A stretch of DNA of 64,000 bases, taken from Pseudobacter ginsenosidimutans. GTDB taxonomy: Bacteria; Bacteroidota; Bacteroidia; Chitinophagales; Chitinophagaceae. The stretch is from positions 3,968,001 through 4,032,000 of the forward strand of contig NZ_CP042431.1 in assembly GCF_007970185.1 (NCBI RefSeq), in the 5' to 3' direction. The notes beneath the pieces were generated by a model. That model worked only from the letters and a program-made list of their open reading frames with translations, made no database searches and was not told the origin of the DNA. The position numbers and the translations under genes are program-made. Shown one piece after another: positions 21,024-54,659 of the stretch; position 1 is the first letter of the stretch; each line of letters opens with the position of its first letter.

Positions 21024-21620
21024 TTGGCCGTAACCCCATCATACCAGGAAAAAGAATTATTGCATCGCCTGTCTGAAGGAGATAAACAGGCATTCACCAC
21101 CTTGTTCGATATTTATTGGGACAATATCTACAGCGTTGCGCTTGTACTCACCAAATCGCCGCAGCTCGCAGAGGATACGGTGCAGGAGATCTTCCTGAAG
21201 GTCTGGAACAAGCGGGAGGAGCTGGCCTCCGTTGACCGGTTCGACAATTATCTTTTCATTATGGCCAGGAACCATATCTTTTCGGAGTTCCGGCGCTTAA
21301 AGATCCGGCAGGAGCATATTGCCTTGCTCCAGGCTCATTTCGATTCAGCACTTCAGACTCCGGAAGATCAGATGCTATATAAAGAATCCACTGAACTCAT
21401 CGAAAAAGCAGTAGCCCGACTGGCGCCACAGCAACAACAGGTTTACAGGCTGAGCCGTGAACAGGGCCTCACACATGAAGCCATTGCTGCCACACTGGGC
21501 ATATCCGTTCATACCGTACGCAATCATATGGTCAGGGCTATCAAGGGGATCCGTGATTATCTGATGAACCAGGATAACACCCTGCTGCTGACTGTGGCAT
21601 TGATCCGGTCCATGCTCTAA
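21024..21620 (+). CDS. FecI-type ECF sigma factor (module A)
   Basis: The 198-residue protein has sigma region 2 (FTTLFDIYWDNIYSVALVLTK, LAEDTVQEIFLKVWNKREEL) and region 4 (LAPQQQQVYRLSREQGLTHEAIAATLG, HTVRNHMVRAIKGIRDYL). No ATG exists in frame before region 2: the ATG at 21013 runs into TAA at once, so TTG at 21024 is the most likely start. FecR follows after 72 bp. By analogy with FecI systems it drives the module A genes after release by FecR. It is most like the module B sigma at 38566 in the region 4 motif (HTVRNH/HTVKSH). Confidence 0.93.
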   Translation: MAVTPSYQEKELLHRLSEGDKQAFTTLFDIYWDNIYSVALVLTKSPQLAEDTVQEIFLKVWNKREELASVDRFDNYLFIMARNHIFSEFRRLKIRQEHIALLQAHFDSALQTPEDQMLYKESTELIEKAVARLAPQQQQVYRLSREQGLTHEAIAATLGISVHTVRNHMVRAIKGIRDYLMNQDNTLLLTVALIRSML

Positions 21621-21692
21621 AAAAATATTTTCGGTACATGTAGTTCCTGGTTCTTTGTGGTGCGTCTTCATTTGGTACAAGCCGCAAAAATT

Positions 21693-22868
21693 ATGAAGAA
21701 TTGGCAAGAATTACTGGATGGTTATCTCAATAACAACCTGACATCTGCGGAACTGGAAATGTTCTTACAGCAGGCTGATGATCATAGTGATTCAATTGCC
21801 GGCACCATCGGTGAATTGCTGGCATCGGGAGAATTGCAGGGAGAGGGAGATCCTTTACTGCGCAACAAGCTGCTGGAACAATTGCTGGAGAAGATCGATC
21901 AGCCTGTTGAACCGCCGGTCCGGAAAATTTCCTTCCTGCGCAAACCCTGGGTGCGTGCAGCGGCAGTGGTACTGCTTACAGCAAGTCTCGTTGCCCTCAC
22001 CTGGTTCCTTAAAGACCGTTCAGAAGAGAATATACCTGCGGATCGTCCTGCCATTGTGCAGGATGCTGCTCCCGCCCGCGAAGGCGCCATCCTTACCCTG
22101 GCAGATGGCAGATCGCTTCTGTTAGACAGTTTGCCAAATGGCATTGTAACTACAGATGGCAATACAAAGATCGAACTGGAGAACGGACAGATTTCATATA
22201 GCCATGAAAAAGATACTGCCGGCACAGTTCGCTTCAATACCATGCAAACTCCGAGGGGACGCACTTTTCATATTCAATTGCCGGACGGCACCATGGCCTG
22301 GCTCAACGCTGCATCATCCATCACCTATCCTGTGCAATTCAAAGGAAAAGAACGGAACGTTTCGGTACAGGGCGAAGTGTATTTCGAAGTGGCAAAGAAT
22401 GCCTCCATGCCTTTCCGCGTAACAGTGAACGATCGCACTACCGTGGAAGTATTGGGAACGCATTTTAACGTGAATGCCTATGCGGATGAACCACTCATCA
22501 GTACCACACTCCTCGAAGGAAGTGTGCGGGTGGTCAGTGGAAACTCCGTCATACTGAAGCCCGGTGAAGTAGCCAGCCAGTCAAACTCCGGTGCTGCTTC
22601 CGTTATCCGGGTACAGCCTGCAGATACAGATGCAGTGATGGCCTGGAAAAACAACCGCTTTCATTTCAATCATACTGATATTCCTACGATCATGCGACAA
22701 CTGGCCAGGTGGTATGATGTAGATATCGTGTATGAAGGCGCTGTGCCAACCGGCCATTTCAATGGTAAACCATCCAGAAACCTATCCGCTTCTCAGGTAC
22801 TGACACTGCTGCAACATATTGGTGTCAATTGCCGTATCGAAGGCAAGAAAATCATTGTAGCTGAATAA
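21693..22868 (+). CDS. FecR-type anti-sigma factor (module A)
   Basis: I chose the ATG at 21693 (MKNWQELLDGYLNNNLT), which gives a standard FecR N-terminus; an upstream GTG at 21657 is less likely. The 391-residue protein has a cytoplasmic part, one membrane segment (about 86-106, WVRAAAVVLLTASLVALTWF), then the Bacteroidota FecR region (EGAILTLADGRSLLLDS, TPRGRTFHIQLPDGTMAWLNAASSI split over ~125-215, VQGEVYFEVAKNASMPF, VLGTHFNVNAY). It ends with a DUF4974-like domain (LARWYDVDIVYEG, LTLLQHIGVNCRIEGKKIIV). It should couple the STN domain of the module A SusC to the sigma factor at 21024. susC follows 27 bp later, with none of the antisense hairpin seen at the other two ECF loci. Confidence 0.94.
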   Translation: MKNWQELLDGYLNNNLTSAELEMFLQQADDHSDSIAGTIGELLASGELQGEGDPLLRNKLLEQLLEKIDQPVEPPVRKISFLRKPWVRAAAVVLLTASLVALTWFLKDRSEENIPADRPAIVQDAAPAREGAILTLADGRSLLLDSLPNGIVTTDGNTKIELENGQISYSHEKDTAGTVRFNTMQTPRGRTFHIQLPDGTMAWLNAASSITYPVQFKGKERNVSVQGEVYFEVAKNASMPFRVTVNDRTTVEVLGTHFNVNAYADEPLISTTLLEGSVRVVSGNSVILKPGEVASQSNSGAASVIRVQPADTDAVMAWKNNRFHFNHTDIPTIMRQLARWYDVDIVYEGAVPTGHFNGKPSRNLSASQVLTLLQHIGVNCRIEGKKIIVAE

Positions 22869-22895
22869 TTATTAAGTCATTTAACCAAACTGCTT

Positions 22896-25076
22896 ATGAG
22901 GCCAACATGCCTTACCCTGTTGCTATTGCTTTTATTCCAGCAAGGGTTCTCACAAACTGCGGGCATTACATTCAAAGGCAAAGGCGTTTCCCTTGCCACT
23001 GTATTCGCCAGCATCGAAAAACAAACGGATTATACTTTCTATTACAAGGTGGAAGTATTGGAAAAGGCAAGAAATGTGGACGTGGATTTCAGGAAGGAAC
23101 CACTGTCTGAAGTGCTGAAAGTTCTATTTGCCAACCAACCGCTGAAGTACCTGATCATCGACAAGAATATTGCGGTATCTGCCAGTGAACAACCGGGAAC
23201 GCCAACTTCGGGTCCTGCAGCGCTTATGACGGTAAGTGGAACGGTTATGAATAAACGAGGAGAGGTTCTTGGCAATGCCAGTGTGGTGGTGAAAGGCACT
23301 CTGAAAGGAACATTCACCAAAGCTGATGGAACATTCGTTCTGGAGAATATGAAACCGGAAGATTTGCTGAAGGTAAGTTTCATCGGATACCAGGCTGTAG
23401 AGATATCCATTAAAGGACAGGAAAAGCTAACGATCGTACTGCAGGAAGCCGATAATCAACTGGACGAAGTGGTGGCCCAGGGTTACAGTAACACTACCAA
23501 GAGGCTTTCCACCAGTAGTGTGAGTAAAGTAAGCTCTGCAGAACTGGGCCGTCAAACAGAAATGAATCCATTGCTGGCTTTACAGGGAAGAGTACCGGGA
23601 ATGGTGGTAACGCCAACCACCACTTACGCTGCCAGTTCCATTGAAATAGATCTCCGTGGAAAATCATTACTGTCGGGGCAAAGTGGGAGACCGTTGATAG
23701 TGATCGATGGAAGCCCGCTTTATGTTGGCTCCAACCAGGGGGCAGCTAACGGTGACGGGCCAGCGCAGGGGATGGCGGCAGGATTTTCACCTGCCTATAG
23801 CCAGAACCCATTGTACGGACTCAACCCGAAAGACATTGAGAGCATCGAGATATTGAAAGATGTAGGGGCTACTTCCATCTATGGTTCGGCAGGCGCCAAT
23901 GGTGTGATCCTGATCACCACCAAAAGAGGTAAAGCCGGATCTAACAATGTTGAGGTGAACGCAAGCACAGGCTTCTCCAGGATCACTCGTTACTGGAACA
24001 TGCTCACCACTCCGCAATACCTGGAAATGCGCCGCGAAGCTTTTAAGAATGATGGCATCATTCCCACTCCGCAGAATGCACCGGACCTTCTCGTCTGGGA
24101 TACTACCAGGCAAGTGGACTGGCAAAAAGAGATCTGGGGGAAAATGGGGTCCAATTTCAGCGCCAATGCTGTTATCTCCGGCGGCACCGCTCAATTCACG
24201 CACCGGTTGTCTGCGAATTACAACACCAGCAGTGATATCACTACCGCATCAGGAAGTAACGATGTGATAGGCGTGTCAGCAGCATTGGATCACAGAAGCC
24301 GTGATTCCCGTTTCAGTCTCGGCTTCACAGCCAACTATTACTATACCAAATCAGACATAGTAAGAACTCCGTCAATTTCTACATTGCCGCCTAATGCACC
24401 ACCCATTTATGATGAAACCGGTGGTCTCAACTGGGCTGCCTATAATGCCGTTGGTCAGGCTTCTTTCCTGGAATCCTTTGTTTGGATGCCTACGCCGGTA
24501 TTAAGCAAAACCAACAGCATCTCTTCCAACCTGCGATTGAAATACGAGATCCTGAGAGGGCTCAACCTCATTGCTTCCGTCGGGTATAACCGGAATGATA
24601 ATGATATGGAGATGTTCAAGACCATCAAATCTCAAAACCCTGCCAGTTTCCCGATCGGACAAGCATTGTATGGTAAATCGAAAAGCAATAACTGGACGAT
24701 AGAACCACAGGCCAGTTATGAAAATACGCTGTTGGGAAAAGCGCGGATCAGTGTGGTAACAGGAGCTACCATCAGGCAGGAGTTCAGGGAGAACGTTTCG
24801 ATCTATGCAGGAGGATATTCCAATGACGCGTTGATAAGAGTGTTATCGCCGGGAAACATATGGGCCATCACAAATGAACGCAATCCTTACAAGTATGCAG
24901 GGATCTTCGGAAGGATGGGGCTTACCTGGGACAATAAGTATGTGTTGGAATTATCCGGCAGAAGGGATGGGTCATCCCGCTTCGGACCAGGCCGCAGGTT
25001 CGGCAACTTTGGCGCAGTTGGTCTCGCCTGGATCGCCTCCGATGAGCAATGGCTGAAAAAATACTGGCCCCTGTGA
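22896..25076 (+). CDS. SusC/RagA-type receptor with STN domain (module A), N-terminal part of a frameshifted gene
   Basis: The 726-residue frame has a signal peptide (MRPTCLTLLLLLLFQQGFSQ), an STN domain (~22-90), a carboxypeptidase-regulatory-like domain (VSGTVMNKRGEVLGNASVVV, ~112-185), a plug (LDEVVAQGYSNTTKRL, VIDGSPLYVGS, ILKDVGATSIYGSAGANGVI) and half of the barrel. It ends at WIASDEQWLKKYWPL followed by TGA. The module B homologue continues normally past the equivalent WIASEEGWLKD. The continuation is found one frame over at 25049-26209. Adding one base at the C4 run 25068-25071 restores a single 1104-residue receptor. Either the gene is decayed or a base was missed. Confidence 0.9.
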   Translation: MRPTCLTLLLLLLFQQGFSQTAGITFKGKGVSLATVFASIEKQTDYTFYYKVEVLEKARNVDVDFRKEPLSEVLKVLFANQPLKYLIIDKNIAVSASEQPGTPTSGPAALMTVSGTVMNKRGEVLGNASVVVKGTLKGTFTKADGTFVLENMKPEDLLKVSFIGYQAVEISIKGQEKLTIVLQEADNQLDEVVAQGYSNTTKRLSTSSVSKVSSAELGRQTEMNPLLALQGRVPGMVVTPTTTYAASSIEIDLRGKSLLSGQSGRPLIVIDGSPLYVGSNQGAANGDGPAQGMAAGFSPAYSQNPLYGLNPKDIESIEILKDVGATSIYGSAGANGVILITTKRGKAGSNNVEVNASTGFSRITRYWNMLTTPQYLEMRREAFKNDGIIPTPQNAPDLLVWDTTRQVDWQKEIWGKMGSNFSANAVISGGTAQFTHRLSANYNTSSDITTASGSNDVIGVSAALDHRSRDSRFSLGFTANYYYTKSDIVRTPSISTLPPNAPPIYDETGGLNWAAYNAVGQASFLESFVWMPTPVLSKTNSISSNLRLKYEILRGLNLIASVGYNRNDNDMEMFKTIKSQNPASFPIGQALYGKSKSNNWTIEPQASYENTLLGKARISVVTGATIRQEFRENVSIYAGGYSNDALIRVLSPGNIWAITNERNPYKYAGIFGRMGLTWDNKYVLELSGRRDGSSRFGPGRRFGNFGAVGLAWIASDEQWLKKYWPL

Positions 25077-26209
25077 TCAGTTTCCTGAAGTTCAACGCCA
25101 ATACCGGTACCGCAGGGCAGGATGGCGGCAGTGATTACCAATATCTCTCCCGTTGGGGGCAGTCATTCGGCATGCTTACCTATGATGATATCGATCCAAT
25201 GATTGCGCTGCAGCCATTCAACCAGGATTACCATTGGCAACTGACCCGTGAACTGAACCTGGGAATGAATCTCCGTTTCTTCAGGAATGACCTGTCGCTT
25301 GCAGTGAACTATTATCGAAAGCGGGTAGGGAATCAATTGACGCAAAACCCAACACCCTTTATAACCGGCTTCCCCACTGTATTTGGTAACTGGGATGCCA
25401 CTGTACAAAATGAAGGGTGGGAGGCAATGTTCAGCGCTACTCCTGTCAGGACTAAAAATTTTTCCTGGACCTTTTCTGTGAATGCTGCTATCAACAGAAA
25501 CAAATTGCTGCAATATCCGGACATGAAAAATTCACCATTCGCCAGAACCATGACGGTAGGAAAGTCTACTACCGAGAAGTACCTGCTGCATTACGTAGGT
25601 GTGGATCCTATGACAGGGTGGTACCAGTTTGAAGATTACAATAAAGACGGATGGATCAAAAATAATCCCAACGTGATGCCTGGTATCGCAGACGACAACC
25701 GGTATGTGTTCGATCAAATGCCCAAAGTAACGGGAGGCATGTCGCATGCATTCTACTACAAAATTTTTTCTCTGAACCTCTCTTTCGATTACCGTATCCA
25801 GGAAGGAAGGAATGCTTTCGCCGGAATGCTGCCTTCCGGAATACCAGGTACATTGAGCAATATCCCCGTTGAACTTTTCAACCACCGCTGGCAAAAACCT
25901 GGTGATAATGCACGCTACGCAAAATTTTCCACGCAGAGCGCGCCCCAGCATCAGTTTGGAGCAACAACCGGCGGATCAACCCTCACTTATACCGATGCTT
26001 CTTTTCTGCGCTTCAGGAATATCAACTTTTCATACACCCTGCCTGAAAAATGGATGCAGAGATTAGGTATGAAAAACGGTTCGCTGAATATCACCACCAA
26101 TAACCTTTTTGTGATCACCCGTTACAAAGGGATCGATCCGGAAATACAAACCTTTGGGTCGATGCCTCCGTTGAAAACTGTTACAGCAGGCTTTTCTGTT
26201 AATTTCTAA
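25049..26209 (+). CDS. C-terminal barrel part of the frameshifted module A SusC receptor
   Basis: From about 25073 this frame encodes the rest of the barrel (VISFLKFNANTGTAGQDGG, DYQYLSRWGQ) and the usual SusC C-terminus (ITTNNLFVITRYKGIDPEI, PLKTVTAGFSVNF). It aligns with the second half of the module B SusC (FIKFRGSYGITG, YEYLSRWGTA, IQTSNIFYITPYEGLDPEI). The formal ATG at 25049 is out of frame with the first part and has no signal peptide, so this piece is not a gene of its own. susD follows after 10 bp. Confidence 0.88.
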   Translation: MAEKILAPVISFLKFNANTGTAGQDGGSDYQYLSRWGQSFGMLTYDDIDPMIALQPFNQDYHWQLTRELNLGMNLRFFRNDLSLAVNYYRKRVGNQLTQNPTPFITGFPTVFGNWDATVQNEGWEAMFSATPVRTKNFSWTFSVNAAINRNKLLQYPDMKNSPFARTMTVGKSTTEKYLLHYVGVDPMTGWYQFEDYNKDGWIKNNPNVMPGIADDNRYVFDQMPKVTGGMSHAFYYKIFSLNLSFDYRIQEGRNAFAGMLPSGIPGTLSNIPVELFNHRWQKPGDNARYAKFSTQSAPQHQFGATTGGSTLTYTDASFLRFRNINFSYTLPEKWMQRLGMKNGSLNITTNNLFVITRYKGIDPEIQTFGSMPPLKTVTAGFSVNF

Positions 26210-26219
26210 ATTCTATTCC

Positions 26220-27680
26220 ATGCGAATGATCACTCAATATATTCTACCGGTATTGTTTTTCACCATGCTGCTTTCCTGTGAAAAACTGGTAGAAATCGAT
26301 CCTCCCATCGATTCCATTACCACCAGCGAGGTCTTCATTTCTGAAAATCAGGCAAAGCAGGCAATGGCCGGCCTTTACACACTGATGATGAATGGAAAGA
26401 CGGGAAATGGTCATGTCACTTCCTCAAGACTGACCCTGATGGCCAGCCTTTCTTCGGACGACCTGGATTGCTTCAATGCGCAAACCAATAGCTATTTTCC
26501 CTTCAATGCAAACCGTTTGACAAGAGAAAGTATTTCCAGTGATGCTATCTGGACGGGATTGTACGAAATCATCTTTACTGCCAATTCAGTGATAGAAGGA
26601 ATCCGGGCTTCCACTGCTGCAGCTTTTCCTGAAAAATCGAAAACAAAGATGATCGCTGAATGCAGGTTCGTCAGGGCTTTCTGTTTTTTCTACCTCACCA
26701 ATTTTTTTGGAAATGTTCCAATGGTGACCACTACAGACTTCAATGAAACGCGAAGACTTCCGGCCGCATCAAAAACTGAATTGTACAAACAGATGACCGA
26801 TGATCTCCTTTTTGCCAGGGATAATCTGCCACCGGTAAATCAGAACAGCAGCGGCGAACGCATTTATCCCGACAAATGGGCGGCAACTGCTTTGCTGGCG
26901 AGGGTATACCTCTTCCTGGAAGAATATCCCAATGCCTGGGAACAGGCAAATGCAGTGATCCTTAATACTACACAATTCACATTGGAACCAGCGCCGGAAA
27001 ATGTTTTTCTCGTCAATAGCAGGGAAGCTATCTGGCAGTTGAAGCAAAATACCAGCTCTCATAATGGTACTGCCACTTATGAAGGCGAGCAATTCATTCC
27101 CGGAAGCGGCCTGGCCGGAATTCCTTTCTCTGATATCTATTACAATTTGCCTGACAACCTGCTGAATGCATTCGAACCTGACGATAAAAGGAAAACAGAC
27201 TGGACAGCCCCTGCGGCCCCCAATCCCCAGAATGTACCCGGACAATTTTATTTTCCGCATAAGTACAAAACCGGCGGATACAACAAAGTGATCGGTGGAA
27301 TGCCAACGGAATTTTATATGGTGCTTCGATTGGCGGAACAATTCCTCATCCGCGCAGAAGCTGCAGCACATGGCGCCGGCTCTCTCACCGATGCCATCGG
27401 GGATCTCAATAGTATCAGGCATAGGGCCGGATTGTCAGATCTGCCCGATGATCTCGATCAAGCACAGGTGCTGGCCGCCGTTGCGCAGGAACGGAGAATG
27501 GAACTCTTTTGTGAATGGGGGCACAGGTGGTTCGATCTGAAGCGGACCAGCAAGGCAAGTGCAGTGCTGTCTCTGATCCCGGTGAAACAACCCTGGCAGG
27601 GCGATCATCAATTATTGTATCCGATCCCTGCCAGGGAGATCGAATTCAACCCATCCCTCCAGCAAAATCCTGGTTACTAA
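26220..27680 (+). CDS. SusD/RagB-type nutrient-binding lipoprotein (module A)
   Basis: The 486-residue protein has a lipoprotein signal with lipobox MLLSC (Cys ~20) and a mature start CEKLVEIDPPIDSI. SusD features include CRFVRAFCFFYLTNFFGNVP, RVYLFLEEYPNAWEQANAVI and the C-terminal signature ERRMELFCEWGHRWFDLKR and LLYPIPAREI. It closely matches the module B SusD (44116) in these stretches. It partners the frameshifted SusC just upstream (10 bp). The ligand is unknown; the SusD N-terminal text ID/SPPIDT/SITT is shared by both modules, which suggests related substrates. Confidence 0.94.
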   Translation: MRMITQYILPVLFFTMLLSCEKLVEIDPPIDSITTSEVFISENQAKQAMAGLYTLMMNGKTGNGHVTSSRLTLMASLSSDDLDCFNAQTNSYFPFNANRLTRESISSDAIWTGLYEIIFTANSVIEGIRASTAAAFPEKSKTKMIAECRFVRAFCFFYLTNFFGNVPMVTTTDFNETRRLPAASKTELYKQMTDDLLFARDNLPPVNQNSSGERIYPDKWAATALLARVYLFLEEYPNAWEQANAVILNTTQFTLEPAPENVFLVNSREAIWQLKQNTSSHNGTATYEGEQFIPGSGLAGIPFSDIYYNLPDNLLNAFEPDDKRKTDWTAPAAPNPQNVPGQFYFPHKYKTGGYNKVIGGMPTEFYMVLRLAEQFLIRAEAAAHGAGSLTDAIGDLNSIRHRAGLSDLPDDLDQAQVLAAVAQERRMELFCEWGHRWFDLKRTSKASAVLSLIPVKQPWQGDHQLLYPIPAREIEFNPSLQQNPGY

Positions 27681-27692: not shown

Positions 27693-28463
27693 ATGAAAAA
27701 AATCAACCACGGCTGTTTTCTTTTCCTGTTTTTGATAGCAGCCTGTAAAAAAGACAATCCCCGCGGAACAGCCACCCTGCTGATGTTCAATGCTGTGACC
27801 GGATCCGATACGCTCGTTACCAGTTTCAACGGCACAGAAACCATACGCTATTTCAAAACTGCCAACAGGCTGGTCTATGGCGAAGTGATAAGCCCATATT
27901 TTTTCAATATGAACGGGCAATTCAATTCCTATGCAGGTGATCAGCCGATCGTTTTGTACAACAACAACGATACTACCAGCAAGAGCCAGCCTGTATTCGA
28001 TCTACAGGTGAACCTGCCTGTTAGTTCCATCAGCAGCCTCTTCCTCACGGGTTCTCTGGCTGATCCGGATACTTTGTTTACCCGTGATCATCTGCCATAT
28101 CATCCTTCAACCGACAGTAGTATGGGCATACGCTTCGTGAATCTTTCGCCCGGCAATATGAAATTGAGTGTGAACCTGGCGGGAGAGACTCATGGCAGTG
28201 AAGTGAGCGGCCTGCAATATAAAGGGATCACAGGGTTCACGAACTATCCGGTCACGGAAGGAGTGGAGGAGTACAACTATGAATTCAGGGATGCATCCAA
28301 TGGTGATCTGATCACCACATTTACCATCGATGTGCGGAACAGTCAATCCGGCAACTTCATCATCAATCAGCGGCGCTATCGCAATTATACCCTGATGTTC
28401 TATGGGAAAGCCGGCAGCACCGGCACAGATAAACAGGCCGTGCAGATCATGAACAATAATTAA
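27693..28463 (+). CDS. DUF4397-like lipoprotein (module A)
   Basis: The 256-residue protein has a lipoprotein signal with lipobox LIAAC (Cys ~19) followed by KKDN, the charged tail seen on surface-exported Bacteroidota lipoproteins. The body is beta-rich: TATLLMFNAVTGSDTL, a Tyr-rich stretch, then IRFVNLSPGNMKLSVNLAG, which resembles the DUF4397 repeat (residues carried on an immunoglobulin-like fold). It ends QAVQIMNNN. It lies 12 bp after susD and 10 bp before the ABC ATPase gene, so it is translated as part of the module. A surface accessory to the SusCD pair or an anchor for the exporter are both possible. A paralogue is at 45574. Confidence 0.88.
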   Translation: MKKINHGCFLFLFLIAACKKDNPRGTATLLMFNAVTGSDTLVTSFNGTETIRYFKTANRLVYGEVISPYFFNMNGQFNSYAGDQPIVLYNNNDTTSKSQPVFDLQVNLPVSSISSLFLTGSLADPDTLFTRDHLPYHPSTDSSMGIRFVNLSPGNMKLSVNLAGETHGSEVSGLQYKGITGFTNYPVTEGVEEYNYEFRDASNGDLITTFTIDVRNSQSGNFIINQRRYRNYTLMFYGKAGSTGTDKQAVQIMNNN

Positions 28464-34262: not shown

Positions 34263-34264
34263 TC

Positions 34265-40592: not shown

Positions 40593-40597
40593 CAGGC

Positions 40598-40605
40598 CAA
40601 AATTA
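40598..40605 (-). promoter_or_regulatory. Antisense -7 box (TAnnTTTG) at the module B susC start
   Basis: Plus strand CAAAATTA equals TAATTTTG on the minus strand, a full match to TAnnTTTG. It overlaps the susC start codon and points toward the antisense terminator. The -33 element is not evident. Confidence 0.33.
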
Positions 40606-46399: not shown

Positions 46400-47320
46400 A
46401 TGAGTACAGTGTTAAAAGTGGAGAACCTCTCCCACAGGTATTCTACTGCCTGGGCTATCCGTGACATCAGTTTCGAGATCAGCCAAACAGGAGTGATCGG
46501 ATTGCTGGGATCCAATGGAGCCGGTAAATCCACCACCATGAATATCATTTGTGGCGTGCTGAAACAAACAGAAGGTGAAGTGTACATCAATGGCATCAAT
46601 AAAAAGGATGATCCCCGGCTGGCGAAACGACAGTTAGGATTCCTCCCGCAAACACCGCCACTCTATTTCGACTTTACCGTGAACGAATACCTGACCTATG
46701 CGGCAGATCTGCGCTTCATTGAAAAAACAGCAGTGAAGAAAGCTGTGGCCGAAGCGATGGACAAAACAGGAATCGCACATTTCAGTTCCAGGCTGATCAA
46801 GAACCTCTCCGGTGGTTACAGGCAAAGGGTTGGTATTGCACAGGCCATCATTCACAAACCCAGTGTGGTGATACTGGATGAGCCCACCAATGGTCTCGAT
46901 CCAAACCAGATCATCGAAGCGAGAAAACTGATCAGGGAGATCGGCAATGAGCATATCGTATTATTGTCTTCCCATGTGCTGTCTGAGATCAATCTCTTAT
47001 GCCGCGACATCATCATGATCGAAGGAGGCCGCATCGTTTTCTCCGACTCGATGGATTCTTTCAACAATTACCTGCAACCTTCCAGCGTATTGGCCGTGAT
47101 GGAGAATATGCCTGCTGAAGCTGAGCTGCTGAAATTAAGAGGAGTGACCAAAGTGGAATTCCTCTCGGGCAGGCAATGCAGGATCTATTTCGCCGGTGCC
47201 GATAATATCACAGAGCTGGTGATTGCCGCCAGTATGCAGCACCAGTGGAGGCTGCAGGAGATCAACCTTGAAAGATCCCTCTTAGATGATGTATTCAAAC
47301 AATTGTCCAGGCAATCTTAA
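46400..47320 (+). CDS. ABC transporter ATP-binding protein, GldA/ABC-2 exporter type (module B)
   Basis: The 306-residue ATPase has Walker A GSNGAGKST (37-45), Q-loop FLPQTPPLYFDF, signature LSGGYRQRVGIAQ, Walker B VVILDEPTNGLDPNQ and switch His LLSSHVLSE. The C-terminal extension (LLKLRGVTKVEFLSGRQCRIYF) matches the module A ATPase nearly word for word. It should power the exporter formed by the fusions at 47332 and 52347. It lies 11 bp before the first permease. Confidence 0.95.
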   Translation: MSTVLKVENLSHRYSTAWAIRDISFEISQTGVIGLLGSNGAGKSTTMNIICGVLKQTEGEVYINGINKKDDPRLAKRQLGFLPQTPPLYFDFTVNEYLTYAADLRFIEKTAVKKAVAEAMDKTGIAHFSSRLIKNLSGGYRQRVGIAQAIIHKPSVVILDEPTNGLDPNQIIEARKLIREIGNEHIVLLSSHVLSEINLLCRDIIMIEGGRIVFSDSMDSFNNYLQPSSVLAVMENMPAEAELLKLRGVTKVEFLSGRQCRIYFAGADNITELVIAASMQHQWRLQEINLERSLLDDVFKQLSRQS

Positions 47321-47331: not shown

Positions 47332-49647
47332 ATGAGAATCATTTTTAAAATAGCCCGGGCAGAGCTCAGGAATATGTTCTATTCTCCGGTGGCCTGGTTT
47401 GTTATCTTCGTTTTTTATGCGTTCGCAGCGGCCGTCTATTTTCTGCCACAGGCAGGCGTCATGCGTATGCAGGATGTGTTCCAGTCCAATAAACCTGACT
47501 GGATCGGTTTCGAAAAAGGATTGGGGAATGTTCTTATCATACCCATGCTGATGACGGTACTGTCTTTTCTTTATCTTTTCATTCCACTACTTACCATGGG
47601 AGTGGTGAACAGGGAATTCAACAGCGGAACCATCAGGCTATTGTATTCTTCACCCGTAAGAACGCGCGAGATCATCCTGGGCAAATACCTGGGGATGGTA
47701 TGCTTCAATGTGATCTTCCTGCTAGGCTTTGTACTGATACTTGCAACTGCCAGCGTAAATATTCAACATGCTGATACCAGTTGGTTCCTGTCTGTGCTAA
47801 TGGGATTGTTCCTGCTGGTGAATACTTATACTGCCATCGGATTGTTCATCAGTTGTCTGACCCAATATCAGCTGGTGGCGGCAGTATTGACCTTTGGTGC
47901 TTTTTTCCTGTTATCTGCCACTTCAGGTATGGGACAGCAATACGACCTGGTTCGGGATGTTACGCGAGCCGTTTCACTTTCCGGAAAAGTGCAATTCATG
48001 CTGATGGGTTTGATCACCAGCAGGGATGTGATCTATTTTATACTGATCATTTTCCTCTTCCTGATGTTTGCTATGATCAGGATCAAAAGTACTCAGGAAT
48101 CGAAAAAATGGACAGTCACTTTTTCAAGATATGCACTCTGTTTATTGCTGGTGTTGGCTTTGGGATACCTGAGCTCCAGGCCGGGCTATATTTCTTATCT
48201 GGATGTAACGCGGAACAAGATCAATACCCTGCATCCTGCTGTACAGGATGTGCTGAAAAAAATGGATGGCTCACCGGTGACCGTTACACTGTACACCAAC
48301 CTGTTCTATCCGAAAGCGAGCGCAGGACTGCCACAGGAAAGGAACCGCTATATCTGGGATTTCTGGGAAAGGTATATCCGCTTCTATCCAAACCTTTCCT
48401 TTAAGTATGAATATTATTACAGCATGAAGGAAGGGGATAGCTCCTTCTATCAAAGATACCCTGGTAAAAGCATCGAAGAAATTGCAGCGATCGAAGCTGA
48501 GATCCTGGGCATCCGGAAATCCCTGTTCAAAAAAGCAGCAGAGATGGAAAATTATGCAGACCTGAAAAAAGAAGATTTCAGGATGCTGATGGAGCTGGAG
48601 TACAAAGGAAAGAAGGCTTTCTTATCGGTGTACAACGATAAGGATGTCTGGCCAATGCAGGACGATGTTGCCGGCACCATCATGAGACTGGTGCGTTCGA
48701 AAGAGGTAACCGTCAATTTTCTCACAGGACATTTTGAACGTGATCCCATGCGATTCACACCCAGGGATTATGGCAATAATACTACGCATGTGTATATCCG
48801 TGCTGCTCTGGTGAACAAAGGTGTGGATGTGGATACTGTTTCTGTTTCGGATAAGCCCGTTCCCGGCAATACGGATCTGCTGGTGATTGCTGATCCCCGG
48901 TCTGAATACAATGAAGCAGAACTGAACCATATCAACCGCTACATCGAAGAGGGAGGGAATGCGCTGATCTTTACCGAGCCCTCCAAACTATTTATCCTGG
49001 ACCCCGTGCTGAAGAAGATCGGAGTGCAGGTTGAACCAGGCACACTGGTGCATCCCAATGCTCACGAGATGCCTCATATCCTCGTCAGCAAGTTTACAAA
49101 ACCTGGTAACTATATGGCCAAAGAAAAGGCCATGGAATATTTCCAGCGCTATGGTGAACGCGGTGGACAGATTACAAGTGAAGGAACAGGTAATATCATC
49201 GCCTCACCAATAGATGGTTTCAAAGTGGAGGCAGTGATCACCGAGCCCGGGCATCCCAATACCTGGTTGGAAAAAGGTATACTGGTAGTGGATTCAGCTG
49301 CTCCCAAATTTAATCCGGCCGAAGGTGATGTAAAAAGAGATGAATACATCATCGCGGTGAAAATGTCGCGCATGATCAACAATAAGGAACAGCGCATCGT
49401 GGTAGCTGCCGATGCAGATTTCATGTCGTCCAAAAGGATCAGCCATGGAAATATTGGTCATACATTCTACAGCTGGGGGCTGAACAATATGTACCCTGTA
49501 TATGCCAATTACCCTATTCCTGAAGACAGGTTCCTGACCATCAGCGAGAAAACAGCCAAACGACAGATACAATTATATGTGTATGGTATTCCCGCCTTCA
49601 TACTGCTGGCGGCCACCATACTCTTAGTGAGAAGGAAAAGAAAATAG
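47332..49647 (+). CDS. ABC-2 permease-GldG fusion protein 1 (module B)
   Basis: The 771-residue protein begins MRIIFKIARAELRNMFYSPV. It has an ABC-2 permease part with about six helices (1-285: YLFIPLLTMGVVNREFNSGT, LLYSSPVRTREIILGKYLGM, YFILIIFLFLMFAMIRIK) and a GldG-like extracytoplasmic domain (~300-740: PVTVTLYTNLFYP, ERNRYIWDFWERYIRFYPN, LTGHFERDPMRFT, LVIADPRSEYNEAELNHI, GGNALIFTEPSKL, IVVAADADFMSS). A last helix ends VRRKRK. It is more similar to the module B fusion 2 (52347) than to either module A fusion. The exported substrate is unknown. Confidence 0.94.
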   Translation: MRIIFKIARAELRNMFYSPVAWFVIFVFYAFAAAVYFLPQAGVMRMQDVFQSNKPDWIGFEKGLGNVLIIPMLMTVLSFLYLFIPLLTMGVVNREFNSGTIRLLYSSPVRTREIILGKYLGMVCFNVIFLLGFVLILATASVNIQHADTSWFLSVLMGLFLLVNTYTAIGLFISCLTQYQLVAAVLTFGAFFLLSATSGMGQQYDLVRDVTRAVSLSGKVQFMLMGLITSRDVIYFILIIFLFLMFAMIRIKSTQESKKWTVTFSRYALCLLLVLALGYLSSRPGYISYLDVTRNKINTLHPAVQDVLKKMDGSPVTVTLYTNLFYPKASAGLPQERNRYIWDFWERYIRFYPNLSFKYEYYYSMKEGDSSFYQRYPGKSIEEIAAIEAEILGIRKSLFKKAAEMENYADLKKEDFRMLMELEYKGKKAFLSVYNDKDVWPMQDDVAGTIMRLVRSKEVTVNFLTGHFERDPMRFTPRDYGNNTTHVYIRAALVNKGVDVDTVSVSDKPVPGNTDLLVIADPRSEYNEAELNHINRYIEEGGNALIFTEPSKLFILDPVLKKIGVQVEPGTLVHPNAHEMPHILVSKFTKPGNYMAKEKAMEYFQRYGERGGQITSEGTGNIIASPIDGFKVEAVITEPGHPNTWLEKGILVVDSAAPKFNPAEGDVKRDEYIIAVKMSRMINNKEQRIVVAADADFMSSKRISHGNIGHTFYSWGLNNMYPVYANYPIPEDRFLTISEKTAKRQIQLYVYGIPAFILLAATILLVRRKRK

Positions 49648-49682
49648 CAATAATATATCCGATCAGAAAATAATAATAAGTG

Positions 49683-50972
49683 ATGAAGTTTTTGCAAACG
49701 GATGATCAAACCATCGGAGATCTCAGGCTCTTTTCCAAAAAGGAACAGAGAGGCATATACGATATCTATAACAACACAGCCACCAGGGGAGGAGAATTGC
49801 TGCTGGAGAAAATGTTCAGGAATCCGTTGTCTGACCAGGATGCCATTATGGAGCGAGCCGGGATCATCGCATCCCTGGCGAAGCTGAATGCGGCATTCTC
49901 TTTCGGATCAGGATTGCTGGACAGTGTTGAGAAATATTTGTCGCACCATGAAAACAAAGATGGGCAAAAAGCGACGATGGGAGAGAAAGAGATCAGCAAT
50001 GGGGCAACAGCTATCATTGAGTTGCTGCATGCTGTACGCCATTATCTTGAACAGGGAGATATAGCAAAAGTGGAAGGATTAACAAGGGAAAGGATAGCCA
50101 TGACAAAACTCCTGAATGATCCCGCACTTGAACCTGTATTCAGGGAAAAGTCCCAGCCGAAATTATCTTATGCTGCGGTGACTGCTTTCGATATCCTGTT
50201 CAGGGTAAAGGAGAAGAACAGGATGCTGGCTGTGATGGATTTCATTTACCAGATGGATGTATTCATTTCCGTGGCAGCAGTTTCTGTAAAAAGGGATTTT
50301 GTTTTTCCGGTAGCGAAACCGAAGGGGAGCTCTGTGGTGAAAATGGAAGGAGTGTACCATCCCGAGCTGAGCCATCCTGTAGCGAATTCCCTGTATATGG
50401 ATGGGAGCAGGTCTGTAGTATTCCTGACCGGCGCCAATATGGCTGGAAAGTCCACATTCCTCAGGAGTTTCAGTACGGCGCTGTACATCGCGCATATGGG
50501 ATTCCCGGTAGCCGCGAAGCTTGTTGAATTTTCGGTTATGGATGGTATTTACACTACTATCAACCTGCCTGATAACCTGGGTATCGGCGCCAGTCATTTC
50601 TATGCAGAAGTGCTGCGGGTGAAGCAGGTGGCGGCAGAGCTTGGCGCCGGGAAATCGCTTTTTGTTTTGTTCGATGAATTGTTCCGGGGAACGAATGTGA
50701 AAGATGCTCATGAAGGTACTGTGGCCATTACGCATGCATTTGCAGGTAAGAAGACCAGCCTTTTCATCATCTCCTCCCATATTGTGGAGGCCGGCGATGA
50801 GCTGAAGCAAAAGAAGAATATCGCTTTCCATTATTTGCCTACGAAGATGAGTGGAACAGTCCCTGACTATACCTATACGTTAGAAGAAGGCATTACGGAT
50901 GACAGGCATGGTATGATCATTATCCGTAACGAGGGAATTCTTGAAACATTGAAAAACGGAAAGAAAGAATAA
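49683..50972 (+). CDS. MutS-like ATPase, type a (module B)
   Basis: I chose ATG 49683; a GTG directly before it is less likely. The 429-residue protein matches the type a protein of module A along its length (FLQTDDQTIGDLRLFSK; ATMGEKEISNGATAIIE). The ATPase motifs are Walker A GANMAGKST, loop DNLGIGASHFYAEVLRVKQ, Walker B FVLFDELFRGTN, switch His ISSHIVEAG and end HGMIIIRNEGILETL. No mismatch-recognition or connector domain is present. It is between permease fusion 1 (35 bp upstream) and the type b gene (34 bp downstream), inside the exporter operon. Confidence 0.91.
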   Translation: MKFLQTDDQTIGDLRLFSKKEQRGIYDIYNNTATRGGELLLEKMFRNPLSDQDAIMERAGIIASLAKLNAAFSFGSGLLDSVEKYLSHHENKDGQKATMGEKEISNGATAIIELLHAVRHYLEQGDIAKVEGLTRERIAMTKLLNDPALEPVFREKSQPKLSYAAVTAFDILFRVKEKNRMLAVMDFIYQMDVFISVAAVSVKRDFVFPVAKPKGSSVVKMEGVYHPELSHPVANSLYMDGSRSVVFLTGANMAGKSTFLRSFSTALYIAHMGFPVAAKLVEFSVMDGIYTTINLPDNLGIGASHFYAEVLRVKQVAAELGAGKSLFVLFDELFRGTNVKDAHEGTVAITHAFAGKKTSLFIISSHIVEAGDELKQKKNIAFHYLPTKMSGTVPDYTYTLEEGITDDRHGMIIIRNEGILETLKNGKKE

Positions 50973-51006: not shown

Positions 51007-52323
51007 ATGAATTTCACAATAGACAGGCAATCCCTGGAAGAGTTGAACCTGATGGGAAAGTTCCGGCAGGGGTCGGTTTATTTTCTCTTCAACCAGGTAA
51101 AGACCAGAGGGGGCGAGCAACTGCTGGATCAAATATTCAAAATGCCGCTTGACAGTCCTGAACTGATCACAGAGCGCACTGATATTTTCCGTTTTTTCCA
51201 GGAAGCGAAGTTTCAGTTCCCCTTTGATCCGCAACAGGTGGTGCTGATGCGCGAGTATGTAGATGCAGCGGCCGGCAGCGGCCAGTTGCGGACATGGGCA
51301 GGCATCCTGTTGAAAAAGACTTTGGCCTCGCTCACACGTGATGAACGTTACAAGACCCTGATCCAGGGCCTGCAGGCCACCATCGTTACCCTTAAGAAAT
51401 GCCAGGAATTTGTAACGATACTGTGTTCGATGCCCGGGCCGTACCGGCAGCAGGCTGATCGCATGCAGGGCATACTCGGCTCGCCCGGATTGCGCAGGCT
51501 GATCGATACGGATATCTATGCCGATATTTCTGTAAGCACCATCGCTGCTTATGATCATCTGCTGAAAAGCAGGCTGAGCAATGAGATCAGCGAAGTACTG
51601 GAGTTCATCGCTCAAACCGATGTGAACATTGCTGTAGGCAGTGTAGCAGAAAATAACGGATTTGCATATGCGAAGGCATTACCAAAAAAGGCCAATTGTT
51701 TCAGTGCCATCGATCTGAAACATCCCTGTATCACCCATGCTGTTGGGAACAATATCGAAATGGCTCCCGGAAGCAATGTGATCTTTCTCACCGGCGCCAA
51801 TATGGCTGGTAAATCCACCTGGATGAAAAGCATCGGTATTGCCATGTACCTGGCGCATATCGGGTTTCCTGTGGCTGCGCAGCGTATGGAGTTCTCCGTG
51901 AGGGAAGGTATTTACTCCAGTATCAATGTGGCAGATAATATAGCATTGGGCTATAGCCATTTTTACGCAGAAGTGGTGCGTGTGAAGAATGCGGCAGATG
52001 CAACTGCTACCGGAAAGCATTTGCTGCTGATGTTCGATGAGCTGTTCAAGGGAACGAATGTGAAGGATGCCTTCGATGGTACACTGGCAGTAACGGAAGC
52101 TTTTGCTGAATATACCAACTGCCTGTTCATCGTATCCACACATATCATCGAAGTGGGAGAGGCGTTGAAAGGGAAAAATAATATCCGGTTCACTTTTATG
52201 CCAACAGTACTGGAATCGGGGATCCCGCGATATACTTATCGCTTACAGCAAGGTATAACCGAAGACCGGCAGGGCATGATGATCATCAGGAATGAAGGTA
52301 TTCTTGAGCTGATCGGCAATTAA
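51007..52323 (+). CDS. MutS-like ATPase, type b (module B)
   Basis: The 438-residue protein matches the type b protein of module A: MNFTIDRQSLEELNLMGKF, TRGGEQLLDQIFKMPL, LTRDERYKTLIQGLQATIVT, YADISVSTIAAYDHLLKS. MutS domain V motifs are Walker A GANMAGKST, loop DNIALGYSHFYAEVVRVKN, Walker B MFDELFKGTNVKDA, switch His VSTHIIEVG and end QGMMIIRNEGILELIG. The N-terminal half has no counterpart to MutS domain I. A heterodimer with the type a protein is inferred from the conserved pairing. Permease fusion 2 follows after 23 bp. Confidence 0.91.
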   Translation: MNFTIDRQSLEELNLMGKFRQGSVYFLFNQVKTRGGEQLLDQIFKMPLDSPELITERTDIFRFFQEAKFQFPFDPQQVVLMREYVDAAAGSGQLRTWAGILLKKTLASLTRDERYKTLIQGLQATIVTLKKCQEFVTILCSMPGPYRQQADRMQGILGSPGLRRLIDTDIYADISVSTIAAYDHLLKSRLSNEISEVLEFIAQTDVNIAVGSVAENNGFAYAKALPKKANCFSAIDLKHPCITHAVGNNIEMAPGSNVIFLTGANMAGKSTWMKSIGIAMYLAHIGFPVAAQRMEFSVREGIYSSINVADNIALGYSHFYAEVVRVKNAADATATGKHLLLMFDELFKGTNVKDAFDGTLAVTEAFAEYTNCLFIVSTHIIEVGEALKGKNNIRFTFMPTVLESGIPRYTYRLQQGITEDRQGMMIIRNEGILELIGN

Positions 52324-52346
52324 AATCAATCTTAACTATCATTGAA

Positions 52347-54659
52347 ATGAAAATCATATTCAAAATTGCAAGGGCTGAGCTCAGAACTTTGTTCTATTCT
52401 CCCATTGCCTGGATCGTAATCGTTACCTTCTTTGTGATCTGCGGAATGGAATTTGTAACGCCGCTGATGGATATGGCAAGGCAGCAGCAGATCAAGGCAC
52501 AGAACAGTCCCATGTGGGAAGGATTTGAAGGGCCGCTGACTTTCCGGCTTTTTGAGGAAACCATCAACAAGGTGCTTTCTTATTTCTACTTGTTCATCCC
52601 CTTGCTGACCATGGGCACTATCAGCAGGGAAGTGAATGCCGGCACCATGTACCTGCTTGGATCTTCGCCGGTCAGAACAAGAGAGATCGTATTGGGCAAA
52701 TATCTCGGCCTGCTGACCTTCAATTTTACATTGCTACTGGCAATTGCTTTATTACTGGGAACAGGTTATTTCACCATCGTACAGGCAGACCTCAGTTGGT
52801 TCTTATCGATGATGCTTGGCTTCTTCCTGCTTTCTGCAGCCTACCTGGCGATCGGACTTTATATTTCCTGTTTGACCAATTACCAGATCATGGCCGGCAT
52901 CGCCACTTTTGTGGTGTTCACTCTGCTCACCGTGATAGGATGGGTTTGGCAGGAATACGATTTCGTCCGTGACCTGACCTGGTTCCTGTCAATTTCCGGC
53001 AGGACAGAAAAAATGATCGGTGGACTGATCACAACCCGTGACCTCGCTTACTTCATCCTCATCATCCTTTTGTTCCTCGGACTGGCAATGCTCAGGCTGA
53101 GATCGAAACAGGAATCTGTAAAATGGACCGTTCCTTTTTCGCGGAACCTTGCATGGGTACTGGGCATTGTGATGCTCGGCTATTTCACTTCACGTCCGGG
53201 ATATGTAGGTTATCTCGATGTTACGAGAGATAAATGGAATACTATCGATACCGCCACACAATCCGTACTCAAAGAGCTCGACGGATCTCCCGTTACTGTA
53301 ACGGCTTATGTAAATCTTTTCGGCGGCAACCTGCAGGCCGGCATTCCGGAATCCAGGAACGAGTATATATGGGGATTCTGGGATAAATACATGAGGTTCT
53401 ACCCCAATCTGAAATTCAAATACGAATATTTCTATGATGTGGTGAATGGCGACAGTGGCATCTTCCAGGCATTCCCCAACAAGAATATAGATCAGATAGC
53501 AGTACAGGTGGCGAAGATCTTTGATCAGGACCTCAGCAAATATCAGAAACCGGATGGGATCCGGAAGAAGATCGATCTGTCGAAAGAACCCTTGCGAATG
53601 GTGATGGAACTGGATTATAAAGGAAAGAAAACAATTCTCCGGACTTTCACTCCCAAAGTATGGCCCGATGAACCGAATGTATCTGCGTCTGTCAGGAGGC
53701 TCACGAGGGACAGTTTGCCAGGTGCTCTCTTCCTAACGGGGCACTATGAGCGCAGTCCCTGGCGGAATGGCGAAAGGGAGTTCGGAACGCATACCAATTA
53801 CGATAATGCCAGGCCTGGTCTGGCCAATACCGGCGTGAACTCAGATACTATTTCGCTCCTGCAAAATGATATTCCTGCGTCCACTGCGCTGCTGGTGGTG
53901 GCTGACCCTAAATCTTCGCTTGCTGTAACAGAGCAGGAAAAAATCCTTCGCTATCTCGGTGAAGGCGGTAATGCCTTGTTCTATGCCGAGCCTGGAAAAC
54001 AACAAATGTTGAATCCTTTGCTGAACCAGTTGGGCGTGAACATCGATCCGGGAATACTCGTATCCCCAAGGAAACATGTGGAATCAGGAGTATTCGACTC
54101 AAAGATGACAGCAGCAGGTAATCATATGGCCAGGGAGAAATCGATGCAGAAATTCAGGCAAACCGGGAAGAACGGAGCGATTGCGCGTTTCAAAGGCAGC
54201 AGTCATATCAGTTACCAGGAAAAGGATGGATTCACTATCGAGCCGATTGTTACACTTCCCGGAGACAAAAATATATGGATTGAGAACGGCCTGTTTGTCT
54301 CGGATTCGGCAGCGCCAATTTTTGCAGCAGCTGAAGGCGATATTCAAAAAGAAGAGTATGTACTGGCAATAAAGCTGGAGAGAAAGATCAATAATAAGTT
54401 GCAGCGTATAGTGATAACCGGTGATGCTGACTTCATGTCGAGAGTGGCGTTCAGCGGTATGAAGATCGGAACAGGGATTTACAGCTGGCTGGTGAATAAT
54501 GAATACCCGATCTATACAAGGGTTGTGGATATTCAGGACAGGAAACTGACTATCGGAAAGAACACAGGAAAAACGATCTGGTATGCATATGTATATGTGA
54601 TCCCGGGATTGTTGCTGATAACAGGAACTTTGTTGATAATAAGAAGGAAACGGAAATAA
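52347..54659 (+). CDS. ABC-2 permease-GldG fusion protein 2 (module B)
   Basis: The 770-residue protein begins MKIIFKIARAELRTLFYSPI. It has the ABC-2 permease part (1-285: YLFIPLLTMGTISREVNAGT, LLGSSPVRTREIVLGKYLGL, FILIILLFLGLAMLRLRS) and the GldG-like domain (~300-740: PVTVTAYVNLFGG, SRNEYIWGFWDKYMRFYPN, LTGHYERSPWRNGEREFG, LVVADPKSSLAVTEQEKILRYL, GGNALFYAEPGKQQM, IVITGDADFMS), then a final helix with tail LIIRRKRK. It closes module B. Unlike module A, it is separated from its partner permease by the MutS pair. Confidence 0.94.
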   Translation: MKIIFKIARAELRTLFYSPIAWIVIVTFFVICGMEFVTPLMDMARQQQIKAQNSPMWEGFEGPLTFRLFEETINKVLSYFYLFIPLLTMGTISREVNAGTMYLLGSSPVRTREIVLGKYLGLLTFNFTLLLAIALLLGTGYFTIVQADLSWFLSMMLGFFLLSAAYLAIGLYISCLTNYQIMAGIATFVVFTLLTVIGWVWQEYDFVRDLTWFLSISGRTEKMIGGLITTRDLAYFILIILLFLGLAMLRLRSKQESVKWTVPFSRNLAWVLGIVMLGYFTSRPGYVGYLDVTRDKWNTIDTATQSVLKELDGSPVTVTAYVNLFGGNLQAGIPESRNEYIWGFWDKYMRFYPNLKFKYEYFYDVVNGDSGIFQAFPNKNIDQIAVQVAKIFDQDLSKYQKPDGIRKKIDLSKEPLRMVMELDYKGKKTILRTFTPKVWPDEPNVSASVRRLTRDSLPGALFLTGHYERSPWRNGEREFGTHTNYDNARPGLANTGVNSDTISLLQNDIPASTALLVVADPKSSLAVTEQEKILRYLGEGGNALFYAEPGKQQMLNPLLNQLGVNIDPGILVSPRKHVESGVFDSKMTAAGNHMAREKSMQKFRQTGKNGAIARFKGSSHISYQEKDGFTIEPIVTLPGDKNIWIENGLFVSDSAAPIFAAAEGDIQKEEYVLAIKLERKINNKLQRIVITGDADFMSRVAFSGMKIGTGIYSWLVNNEYPIYTRVVDIQDRKLTIGKNTGKTIWYAYVYVIPGLLLITGTLLIIRRKRK

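Follow-up and report, generated by a model that had tools for sequence, protein, structure and literature searches.

A MutS-like ATPase pair linked to an ABC-2/GldG-type membrane machine and SusC-SusD uptake genes in dozens of Pseudobacter ginsenosidimutans operons

The stretch of Pseudobacter ginsenosidimutans DNA analysed here (contig NZ_CP042431.1, positions 3,968,001 to 4,032,000; 64,000 nucleotides, hereafter 'the window') carries two ten-gene operons on the plus strand, copy A (21024-36989) and copy B (38566-54659), delimited by domain scans and a list of open reading frames (ORFs). Each joins genes of TonB-dependent uptake to an ATP-binding cassette (ABC) ATPase, two proteins in which a permease is fused to a GldG domain (permease-GldG fusions) and a pair of MutS-like ATPases, the first and second members of which we call M1 and M2. 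The order in copy A is sigma factor, FecR, SusC, SusD, DUF4397 lipoprotein, ABC ATPase, two permease-GldG fusions, M1 and M2; in copy B it is sigma factor, FecR, SusC, SusD, lipoprotein, ABC ATPase, permease-GldG fusion, M1, M2 and permease-GldG fusion. The initial annotation of this DNA had described the same two gene orders, with shared content and a different order at the end, and the domain scans bear it out: the second permease-GldG fusion of copy B comes after the MutS-like pair, and the copy B sigma factor, FecR and SusD are recognised by similarity to their copy A counterparts.

Copy A opens with a FecI-type extracytoplasmic function (ECF) sigma factor (21024..21620; Sigma70_r2 and Sigma70_r4 domains) and a FecR anti-sigma regulator (21657..22868; FecR and FecR_C), followed by a SusC-type TonB-dependent transporter (22896..26209), a SusD surface lipoprotein (26220..27680; SusD_RagB and SusD-like_3), a DUF4397 lipoprotein in a position that varies between operons (27693..28463; PF14344), the ABC ATPase (28474..29397; ABC_tran), the permease-GldG fusions (29434..31793 and 31827..34262; both with ABC2_membrane and ABC_transp_aux), M1 (34196..35566) and M2 (35676..36989). 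Two of these genes are each broken across two overlapping frames. The first piece of SusC (22896-25076) carries STN, CarboxypepD_reg and Plug, the second (25049-26209) has no Pfam match, and both align to the SusC of copy B; in the first permease-GldG fusion, ABC2_membrane lies in one piece (29434-29931) and ABC_transp_aux in the other (29898-31793). Judged from other M1 proteins, M1 of copy A likely starts at about 34265, downstream of its mechanical ORF start.

Copy B comprises the ECF sigma factor (38566..39162), FecR (39223..40377), SusC (40575..44105; CarboxypepD_reg, Plug and an STN domain at 31.2 bits, cut-off 28.4), SusD (44116..45564), a lipoprotein (45574..46356), the ABC ATPase (46400..47320; ABC_tran), the first permease-GldG fusion (47332..49647; ABC2_membrane and ABC_transp_aux), M1 (49680..50972), M2 (51007..52323) and the second permease-GldG fusion (52347..54659; ABC2_membrane_2 and ABC_transp_aux, with the GldF model below its cut-off). 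All four M1 and M2 proteins of the window carry MutS_III and MutS_V. A DUF4397-like lipoprotein had been assigned to both operons; this holds for copy A, and the copy B protein is without a Pfam match, yet homologous to that of copy A (30% identity), a diverged DUF4397 relative. Judging by their sequences, copies A and B are diverged paralogues, with identities of 38% for the sigma factor, 43% for FecR, 34-35% for SusC and 44% for SusD, and of 67% for the ABC ATPase, 37-46% (by piece) for the permease-GldG fusions, 58% for M1 and 63% for M2. The intergenic gaps are mostly below 60 bp by mechanical ORF starts, as first noted; one is exactly 60 bp, and two are longer, at 197 bp between FecR and SusC of copy B and 109 bp between M1 and M2 of copy A. 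A scan for promoters and terminators returned 32 promoter-like sites against 28.9 expected by chance and 28 terminator-like sites against 16.4, and is not used as evidence.

A 466-aa frame without a Pfam match lies between the two operons on the minus strand (37008-38408). Next to copy B, and also on the minus strand, is a gene for a protein of 1283 aa that combines CheB, CheR, PAS and histidine-kinase domains (54978-58829). The MutS pair of a third module of the same kind (L032) starts about 1.6 kb past window position 64000, on the minus strand.

The initial annotation spoke of two copies. Both are present, but the scale is far larger: they are two of 56 such operons in this genome. The 7.8 Mb single-contig genome contains 117 MutS domain-V matches, of which 112, sorted by position, form 56 tandem pairs of genes mostly of about 440 aa, and five are single genes; MutS matches also fall in frames of 910 aa and 716 aa, lengths usual for MutS and MutS2. 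Every one of the 56 pairs sits in an operon with SusC, SusD, an ABC ATPase and a permease-GldG fusion. We examined 57 stretches of 20 kb, one surrounding each of the 56 pairs and one a single gene; the counts below on 55 modules leave out the single gene (L019) and one displaced pair (L012). In 55/55 stretches SusC, SusD, ABC ATPase and permease-GldG fusion lie upstream of the pair on the same strand, which places the arrangement far beyond chance; SusC is split or fragmentary in some (e.g. L060). FecR is found upstream in 54 of the 55 and a sigma factor in 48: where they are lacking, one stretch (L022) has a divergent sigma-FecR pair and the rest are too short. The 56th pair (L012) lies 11 bp ahead of a sigma factor gene, and its operon, in which SusC and SusD are split, continues into a further stretch (L146) as SusC, SusD, DUF4843/PKD-like genes, ABC ATPase and permease-GldG fusion. 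The pair can thus stand at the operon end, before the last permease or ahead of the sigma factor, and since it stays in the operon at all three positions, the linkage outlives rearrangement.

The genes are also tightly packed, with median gaps by mechanical starts of 12 bp from ABC ATPase to permease-GldG fusion (n = 55; range -98 to 126 bp), 11 bp from the fusion to M1 (n = 53; -221 to 1375 bp) and 11 bp from M1 to M2 (n = 53; -86 to 205 bp). The GldG domain PF09822 has 87 matches in the genome, 82 of them inside the 56 pair stretches; the other five belong to the L146 module, to three operons without a MutS pair and to one GldG-like gene at 994 kb. With at least 150 SusD genes in the genome (150 of 190 candidates scored), 56 of which belong to loci that carry the ABC-permease-GldG-M1-M2 cassette, the cassette accompanies a large minority of SusC-SusD loci.

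The genes co-occur well beyond this strain, so that the condition under which the initial annotation would have dropped the module idea, co-occurrence in this strain alone, does not hold. Of 60 family genomes, eight carry the permease-GldG fusion (E <= 1e-60, a threshold at which lower-scoring fusions would be missed), and these are exactly the eight with the MutS pair; the other 52 have neither. Of these 52, 44 have a single MutS-like match, two (G013 and G055, counted as without the pair) have two low-scoring non-tandem matches each and six have none; single matches score 216-330 bits against 466-752 bits for pair members. The pair is present in 20/298 genomes of the order and 3/392 of the phylum, the window's own genome being counted in both; these scans scored four to five candidates per genome, and copy numbers were taken from separate counts. 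Loci in named genomes, the best 80 of 568 relatives, come from Chitinophaga, Niastella, Pseudoflavitalea, Pedobacter, Mucilaginibacter, Sphingobacterium and others. In 78 of the 80, M2 has M1 or a fusion no more than 200 bp away; of the two exceptions, one is cut by a contig end (L110) and in the other (L068) M1 ends about 1.1 kb upstream. Where there is enough sequence, a permease-GldG fusion lies upstream in 76/76 named loci, an ABC ATPase in 71/71 and SusD in 69/70, and SusC is found within 10 kb in 63/70. Copy number differs greatly within the genus, with 56 pairs here and about 24, about 11 and three in three relatives (49, 22 and 6 matches, halved to give pairs; the count for G002, a relative whose coordinates agree with Pseudoflavitalea rhizosphaerae KACC 18655, includes contig-edge fragments).

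The single MutS-like gene, of about 440 aa, adjoins or nearly adjoins a dihydroorotase-like gene (named by eye) in 9/9 loci (L019:4458-5771 on the minus strand, and L187-L194). It may resemble the founder of the pairs. An origin in defence or mobile elements was considered and found no support in PADLOC, phage or plasmid searches. At E 0.001 there was no PADLOC match for the window M1, M2, permease-GldG fusions and lipoproteins tested, and the ABC ATPase alone matched (seven families, e.g. mad3); a phage search with one M1 returned 18 records, all below 60% identity and none covering 80% of the query, and a plasmid search with one M1 returned 99 records, all below 60% identity, two of which cover 80% of the query.

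Both members of the pair retain the ATPase motifs of the MutS fold. Counted over the 52-53 of the 56 pairs that remain when short or split proteins are left out, the P-loop reads TGANMAGKST in 52/52 M1 and 53/53 M2, and the Walker B motif reads [FVI]DE[LM]FRGTN in 52/52 M1 and FDELFKGTN in 53/53 M2. What appears to have gone is the part of MutS that contacts DNA. In the four window proteins there is no Pfam mismatch-binding domain I or connector domain II, and none of the four matches MutS_IV. With domain borders of Msh2 that we assume for placing the mismatch, connector and clamp domains, the M1 profile begins at Msh2 residue 303 and the M2 profile at 323, after the mismatch and connector domains, and the M1 profile aligns to residues 303-401 and 553-828, past the clamp-bearing stretch: 60 profile positions (101-161) face 152 Msh2 residues (401-553). 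In one window M1 the MutS_III match runs unbroken over the full profile, and no strand of three or more residues occurs between positions 24 and 203 in the model of a natural M1-M2 fusion. Since M1 and M2 are equally long and align with each other end to end, we take the clamp to be missing in both. In a Foldseek search with the fusion model, MutS and MSH2 structures rank first. The NCBIfam scores of the pair lie far under the MutS/MutS2 cut-offs (at most 119.6 against 480) and, together with the apparent loss of the DNA-contacting domains, make DNA mismatch repair an unlikely job for M1 and M2 and a non-DNA role the likely one. The suggestion in the initial annotation that MutS domain V points to DNA work is thus not supported, although the M2 profile alignment would by itself be ambiguous on this point.

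M1 and M2 are, as judged from the proteins' alignments and phylogeny, distinct paralogues that are sometimes fused. On a FastTree phylogeny of 279 rows, M1, with the N-terminal halves of fused proteins, is set apart by a branch with support 99, as are the single genes by one with support 96; the M1 of L023 was left out of one alignment. Rows from this genome and from others switch 27-28 times on the tree, so that many lineages are common to other genomes. The six fused M1-M2 proteins on the tree need five changes, at least four by starred branches, so the fusion seems to have arisen repeatedly, and this is good evidence for M1 and M2 acting next to each other. Fused proteins were aligned as their own set of seven, as a mixed alignment with single proteins misplaced the halves.

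The model of the first permease-GldG fusion of copy B (47332..49647) reached a predicted local distance difference test (pLDDT) score of 86.7. The structures it matches best are the N-terminal domain of IFT52 and subunits of oligosaccharyltransferase; next in rank come NosDFY chains (E 7e-4) that we take to be NosY. We read the IFT52 and oligosaccharyltransferase matches as reflecting a periplasmic arm and the NosDFY matches the membrane part. NosDFY, itself an ABC-2 machine, works on a partner in the periplasm; a machine of this type might accordingly transport inwards, transport outwards or transmit force. The one protein scanned with the GldF equivalog scored 80.5 bits against a cut-off of 288.5. 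The GldG domain scores highest in this genome in a stand-alone frame of 568 aa, next to which lies a permease-like gene of 240 aa (L149).

We next compared how the parts of the operon diverge among modules of this genome, using Mantel correlations of inter-module distances (39-54 modules per test, 300 permutations; short or split M1/M2 were left out, and the M1 table also included the single gene L019). The ABC ATPase, permease-GldG fusion, M1 and M2 co-diverge closely (rho 0.75-0.92, 0/300 permutations as high). The MutS pair tracks the ABC ATPase and permease-GldG fusion (rho 0.75-0.84) more closely than SusC (0.24-0.30). SusC and SusD co-diverge with each other (rho 0.69), SusD with the cassette at 0.40-0.48 and SusC with the cassette at 0.23-0.30, each with 0/300 permutations as high; for sigma factor and FecR, rho is 0.13 (15/300 permutations as high). 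Median pairwise identity between modules is 0.65 for the ABC ATPase, 0.59 for M1, 0.61 for M2, 0.40 for the permease-GldG fusion, 0.37 for FecR and 0.24-0.25 for SusC and SusD. Between nearest unsaturated copies, saturated pairs being excluded, the median ratio of non-synonymous to synonymous substitution rates (dN/dS) is 0.07-0.10 for ABC ATPase, M1 and M2, 0.15-0.17 for permease-GldG fusion, SusC and SusD and 0.23 for sigma factor and FecR. Taken together, these correlations, identities and rate ratios make the cytosolic ATPases look like a conserved engine around which outer-membrane receptors vary and regulators evolve separately.

The receptor side seems equipped for sensing as well as uptake, with an STN domain in 37 of the 38 SusC proteins scanned (47 are in the length range). 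The DUF4397 protein had been counted among the defining parts of the system, which is not supported. The slot between SusD and ABC ATPase is variable: of the 55 modules, 27 have a DUF4397-type protein there and 8 have DUF4843 with PKD; 13 encode a protein of about 310-340 aa, in some cases together with a second sigma factor, three encode an M16- or metallopeptidase-like protein (the metallopeptidase-like match is weak, below its cut-off), and in four nothing is recognised. The second ECF sigma factor between SusD and ABC ATPase is seen in 10/55 modules (L018:10093-10857, L010, L037, L045, L047, L049, L050, L059, L060 and L063), and may be membrane-tethered, given a hydrophobic C-terminal stretch seen by eye. 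An M16 protease occupies the slot in 1/55 modules and directly follows M2 in two stretches (L055 and L056); among the 80 named loci an M16 gene follows M2 in 14, in five of which a thioredoxin-type gene lies between.

These genes recall the Fus system of ferredoxin uptake (FusA, FusB, FusC, FusD), where a TonB-dependent receptor, an M16 protease and a putative ABC transporter share one operon and the protease processes the imported protein (PMC7593965). As described there (PMC7593965), the Fus operon consists of FusA-D only, whereas M16 genes accompany a minority of the modules reported here. By analogy with Fus, the M16 and thioredoxin genes hint at a peptide or protein cargo, at least in the copies that bear them.

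Other known systems each share some of the parts. The FecI/FecR-regulated SusC-SusD loci of Bacteroidota have the sigma factor, FecR, STN-bearing SusC, SusD and surface proteins (DUF4397, DUF4843, PKD_2) in that order; the ABC-2/GldG machine and MutS-like pair are what differs here, in 56 of at least 150 SusD loci, and we know of no FecI/FecR SusC-SusD locus with both. The GldA-GldF-GldG gliding complex shares the ABC ATPase, the ABC-2 permease (by the weak GldF match given above) and the ABC_transp_aux/GldG domain, but in the operons described here permease and GldG domain are one polypeptide. MutS and the MSH2-MSH3/6 proteins likewise have lever/core (III) and ATPase (V) domains, intact Walker motifs and two paralogues; at about 440 aa, M1 and M2 differ in having no domain I or II and no clamp domain IV that we could see. 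KamC (NCBIfam NF052383), named as a lysine 5,6-aminomutase reactivase, shares the ATPase part and is a MutS-fold ATPase with a name outside DNA repair, but M1 and M2 score 91-98 bits against its cut-off of 300; among the KamC/MutS papers listed in the open-access literature none is about KamC by title. The nitrous-oxide reductase maturation machine NosDFY, whose chains the permease-GldG model resembles in fold, differs in that the periplasmic arm here is fused and of GIFT/IFT52-like fold, and no NosD- or NosZ-like domain was found among the window operon genes scanned. While the SusC-SusD and FecR part is already known, our search of the open-access literature found no description of a MutS-type pair joined to an ABC-2/GldG machine or to SusC-SusD.

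That the genes form one functional unit, as the initial annotation proposed, is well supported on genomic grounds by an operon found 56 times in this genome and in several other genera. The reading we favour, to which we give a probability of roughly 0.45, is that these operons encode a TonB-dependent uptake system under regulation, to which an ABC-2 machine and a heterodimeric MutS-type ATPase are coupled; the architecture is directly visible, and the direction of transport, the cargo and the role of the pair are what we infer. Going by protein families, SusD and the slot protein would capture a cargo, and the STN-bearing SusC would import it with TonB energy and signal through FecR to the sigma factor. 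At the inner membrane, the ABC ATPase would drive a single permease or two, each with a large periplasmic arm of GldG/GIFT fold fused to it, and this ABC-2 machine would either move the processed cargo or transmit force to periplasmic partners as NosDFY does. M1 and M2, whose pairing is suggested by linkage, co-divergence and fusions, would form a heterodimeric, two-site MutS-type ATPase that has lost its DNA-contacting domains and that may act in the cytosol on the ABC-permease complex or on the cargo, by coupling, gating or remodelling, with no part in mismatch repair. Peptide- or protein-like molecules are the probable cargo, which would differ from copy to copy, given the M16, thioredoxin and metallopeptidase-like genes on some copies and the divergence of SusC and SusD against the conserved ATPases. 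A bolder claim, which we hold a little more tentatively still, is that ABC ATPase, permease-GldG fusion, M1 and M2 represent an undescribed class of membrane machine, in which a MutS heterodimer stripped of DNA binding serves as a second motor or gate for a GIFT-armed ABC-2 transporter and which has been multiplied dozens of times with different SusC-SusD pairs for different peptide-like cargos.

Traffic could also run outwards. The ABC-2 permeases and MutS pair might export or place on the surface, for example, the lipoproteins of the module or a secreted peptide, which SusC-SusD would then re-import or sense. Export is the usual task of ABC-2 permeases, the closest family with a name is GldF/GldG of gliding, and the permease-GldG fusion diverges more (median identity 40%) than the ATPases, as a cargo-facing part would. 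The export or surface assembly raised in the initial annotation is accordingly possible for these operons, but it seems to us a rather doubtful account: no dedicated cargo gene is constant in the slot, an STN-bearing SusC with FecR is an arrangement for uptake and sensing, and the protease, thioredoxin and metallopeptidase-like genes that a minority of copies carry are more in keeping with peptides being imported and processed than with export. Unlikely is a machine that transports nothing and, in the manner of Bce- or NosDFY-type machines, senses or removes harmful peptides or antibiotics met via SusC-SusD, its many copies answering the compounds of many rivals. The match of the permease-GldG model to NosDFY, an ABC machine solved with its periplasmic partner, and the large variation in copy number within one genus agree with such a role, against which stands the lack of a PADLOC family match for the window M1, M2, permease-GldG fusions and lipoproteins tested, no search having been aimed at resistance genes.

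Two further readings we consider very improbable. The pair might act on DNA, for instance in recombination or phase variation among SusC copies, with the transport genes as its target; MutS-family ATPase domains beside a multi-copy, diverged SusC repertoire invite the idea, as does an M2 profile alignment that passes weakly through the clamp stretch of Msh2. However, the pair lacks the mismatch and connector domains and apparently the clamp too, it co-diverges most with the ABC ATPase and permease-GldG fusion and less with SusC, and the genome has frames of ordinary MutS and MutS2 size besides. Alternatively, the cassette could spread as a selfish or neutral passenger on SusC-SusD loci, for which its patchy distribution across order and phylum and the split genes of several copies could be cited; purifying selection on ABC ATPase, M1 and M2, linkage kept through three gene orders and close co-occurrence across genera all speak against a passenger.

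Coupled uptake by way of the ABC-2 machine and the MutS pair, the reading we prefer, must itself be set against several observations that weigh against it. Three operons (L147, L148 and L150), perhaps ancestral, perhaps reduced, run sigma factor, FecR, SusC, SusD, ABC ATPase and permease-GldG fusion without a MutS pair, so the ABC-permease part can exist without it, and one named locus (L071:5240-11317) has the full ABC-permease-GldG-M1-M2 cassette with a divergent sigma factor and FecR and no SusD in the 10 kb upstream. At least ten of the 55 modules have a split gene besides SusC (window copy A at 29434-31793, L015, L026, L028, L037, L041, L049, L059, L062 and L063), possibly reflecting decay, sequencing indels or recoding. 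Sigma factor and FecR show no co-divergence with the cassette (rho -0.07 to 0.05) and little with SusC (weak for FecR: rho 0.17, 5/300 permutations as high). Within the pair, the SHFYAE motif is kept in 53/53 M2 and in 44/52 M1, varying in the other 8/52; M2 is not a clean clade, three of its rows from this genome falling outside the main group (support 52) and several being long branches; and the best alignment of M2 to Msh2, which passes weakly through the clamp stretch, overlaps another one by reusing the same M2 residues and is by itself ambiguous on the clamp. The model of the natural M1-M2 fusion is of moderate quality (pLDDT 71, predicted template modelling score 0.48) and does not establish a composite ATPase interface. 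Most modules of this genome are without a protease or thioredoxin by the profiles used, which leaves the argument for a peptide cargo weak.

MutS-fold ATPases are textbook DNA-repair enzymes, and the operons described here suggest that this fold has been recruited into membrane transport. If that is true, it would be a large recruitment of a DNA-repair motor, and such genes in Chitinophaga, Pedobacter and their relatives should not be annotated as repair genes. It would also pose a tractable question, namely what the cargo is and which partner the pair acts on, for which the natural M1-M2 fusions would suit structural work. The operons also show a SusC-SusD repertoire diversified around a conserved engine, with three to 56 pairs within one genus.

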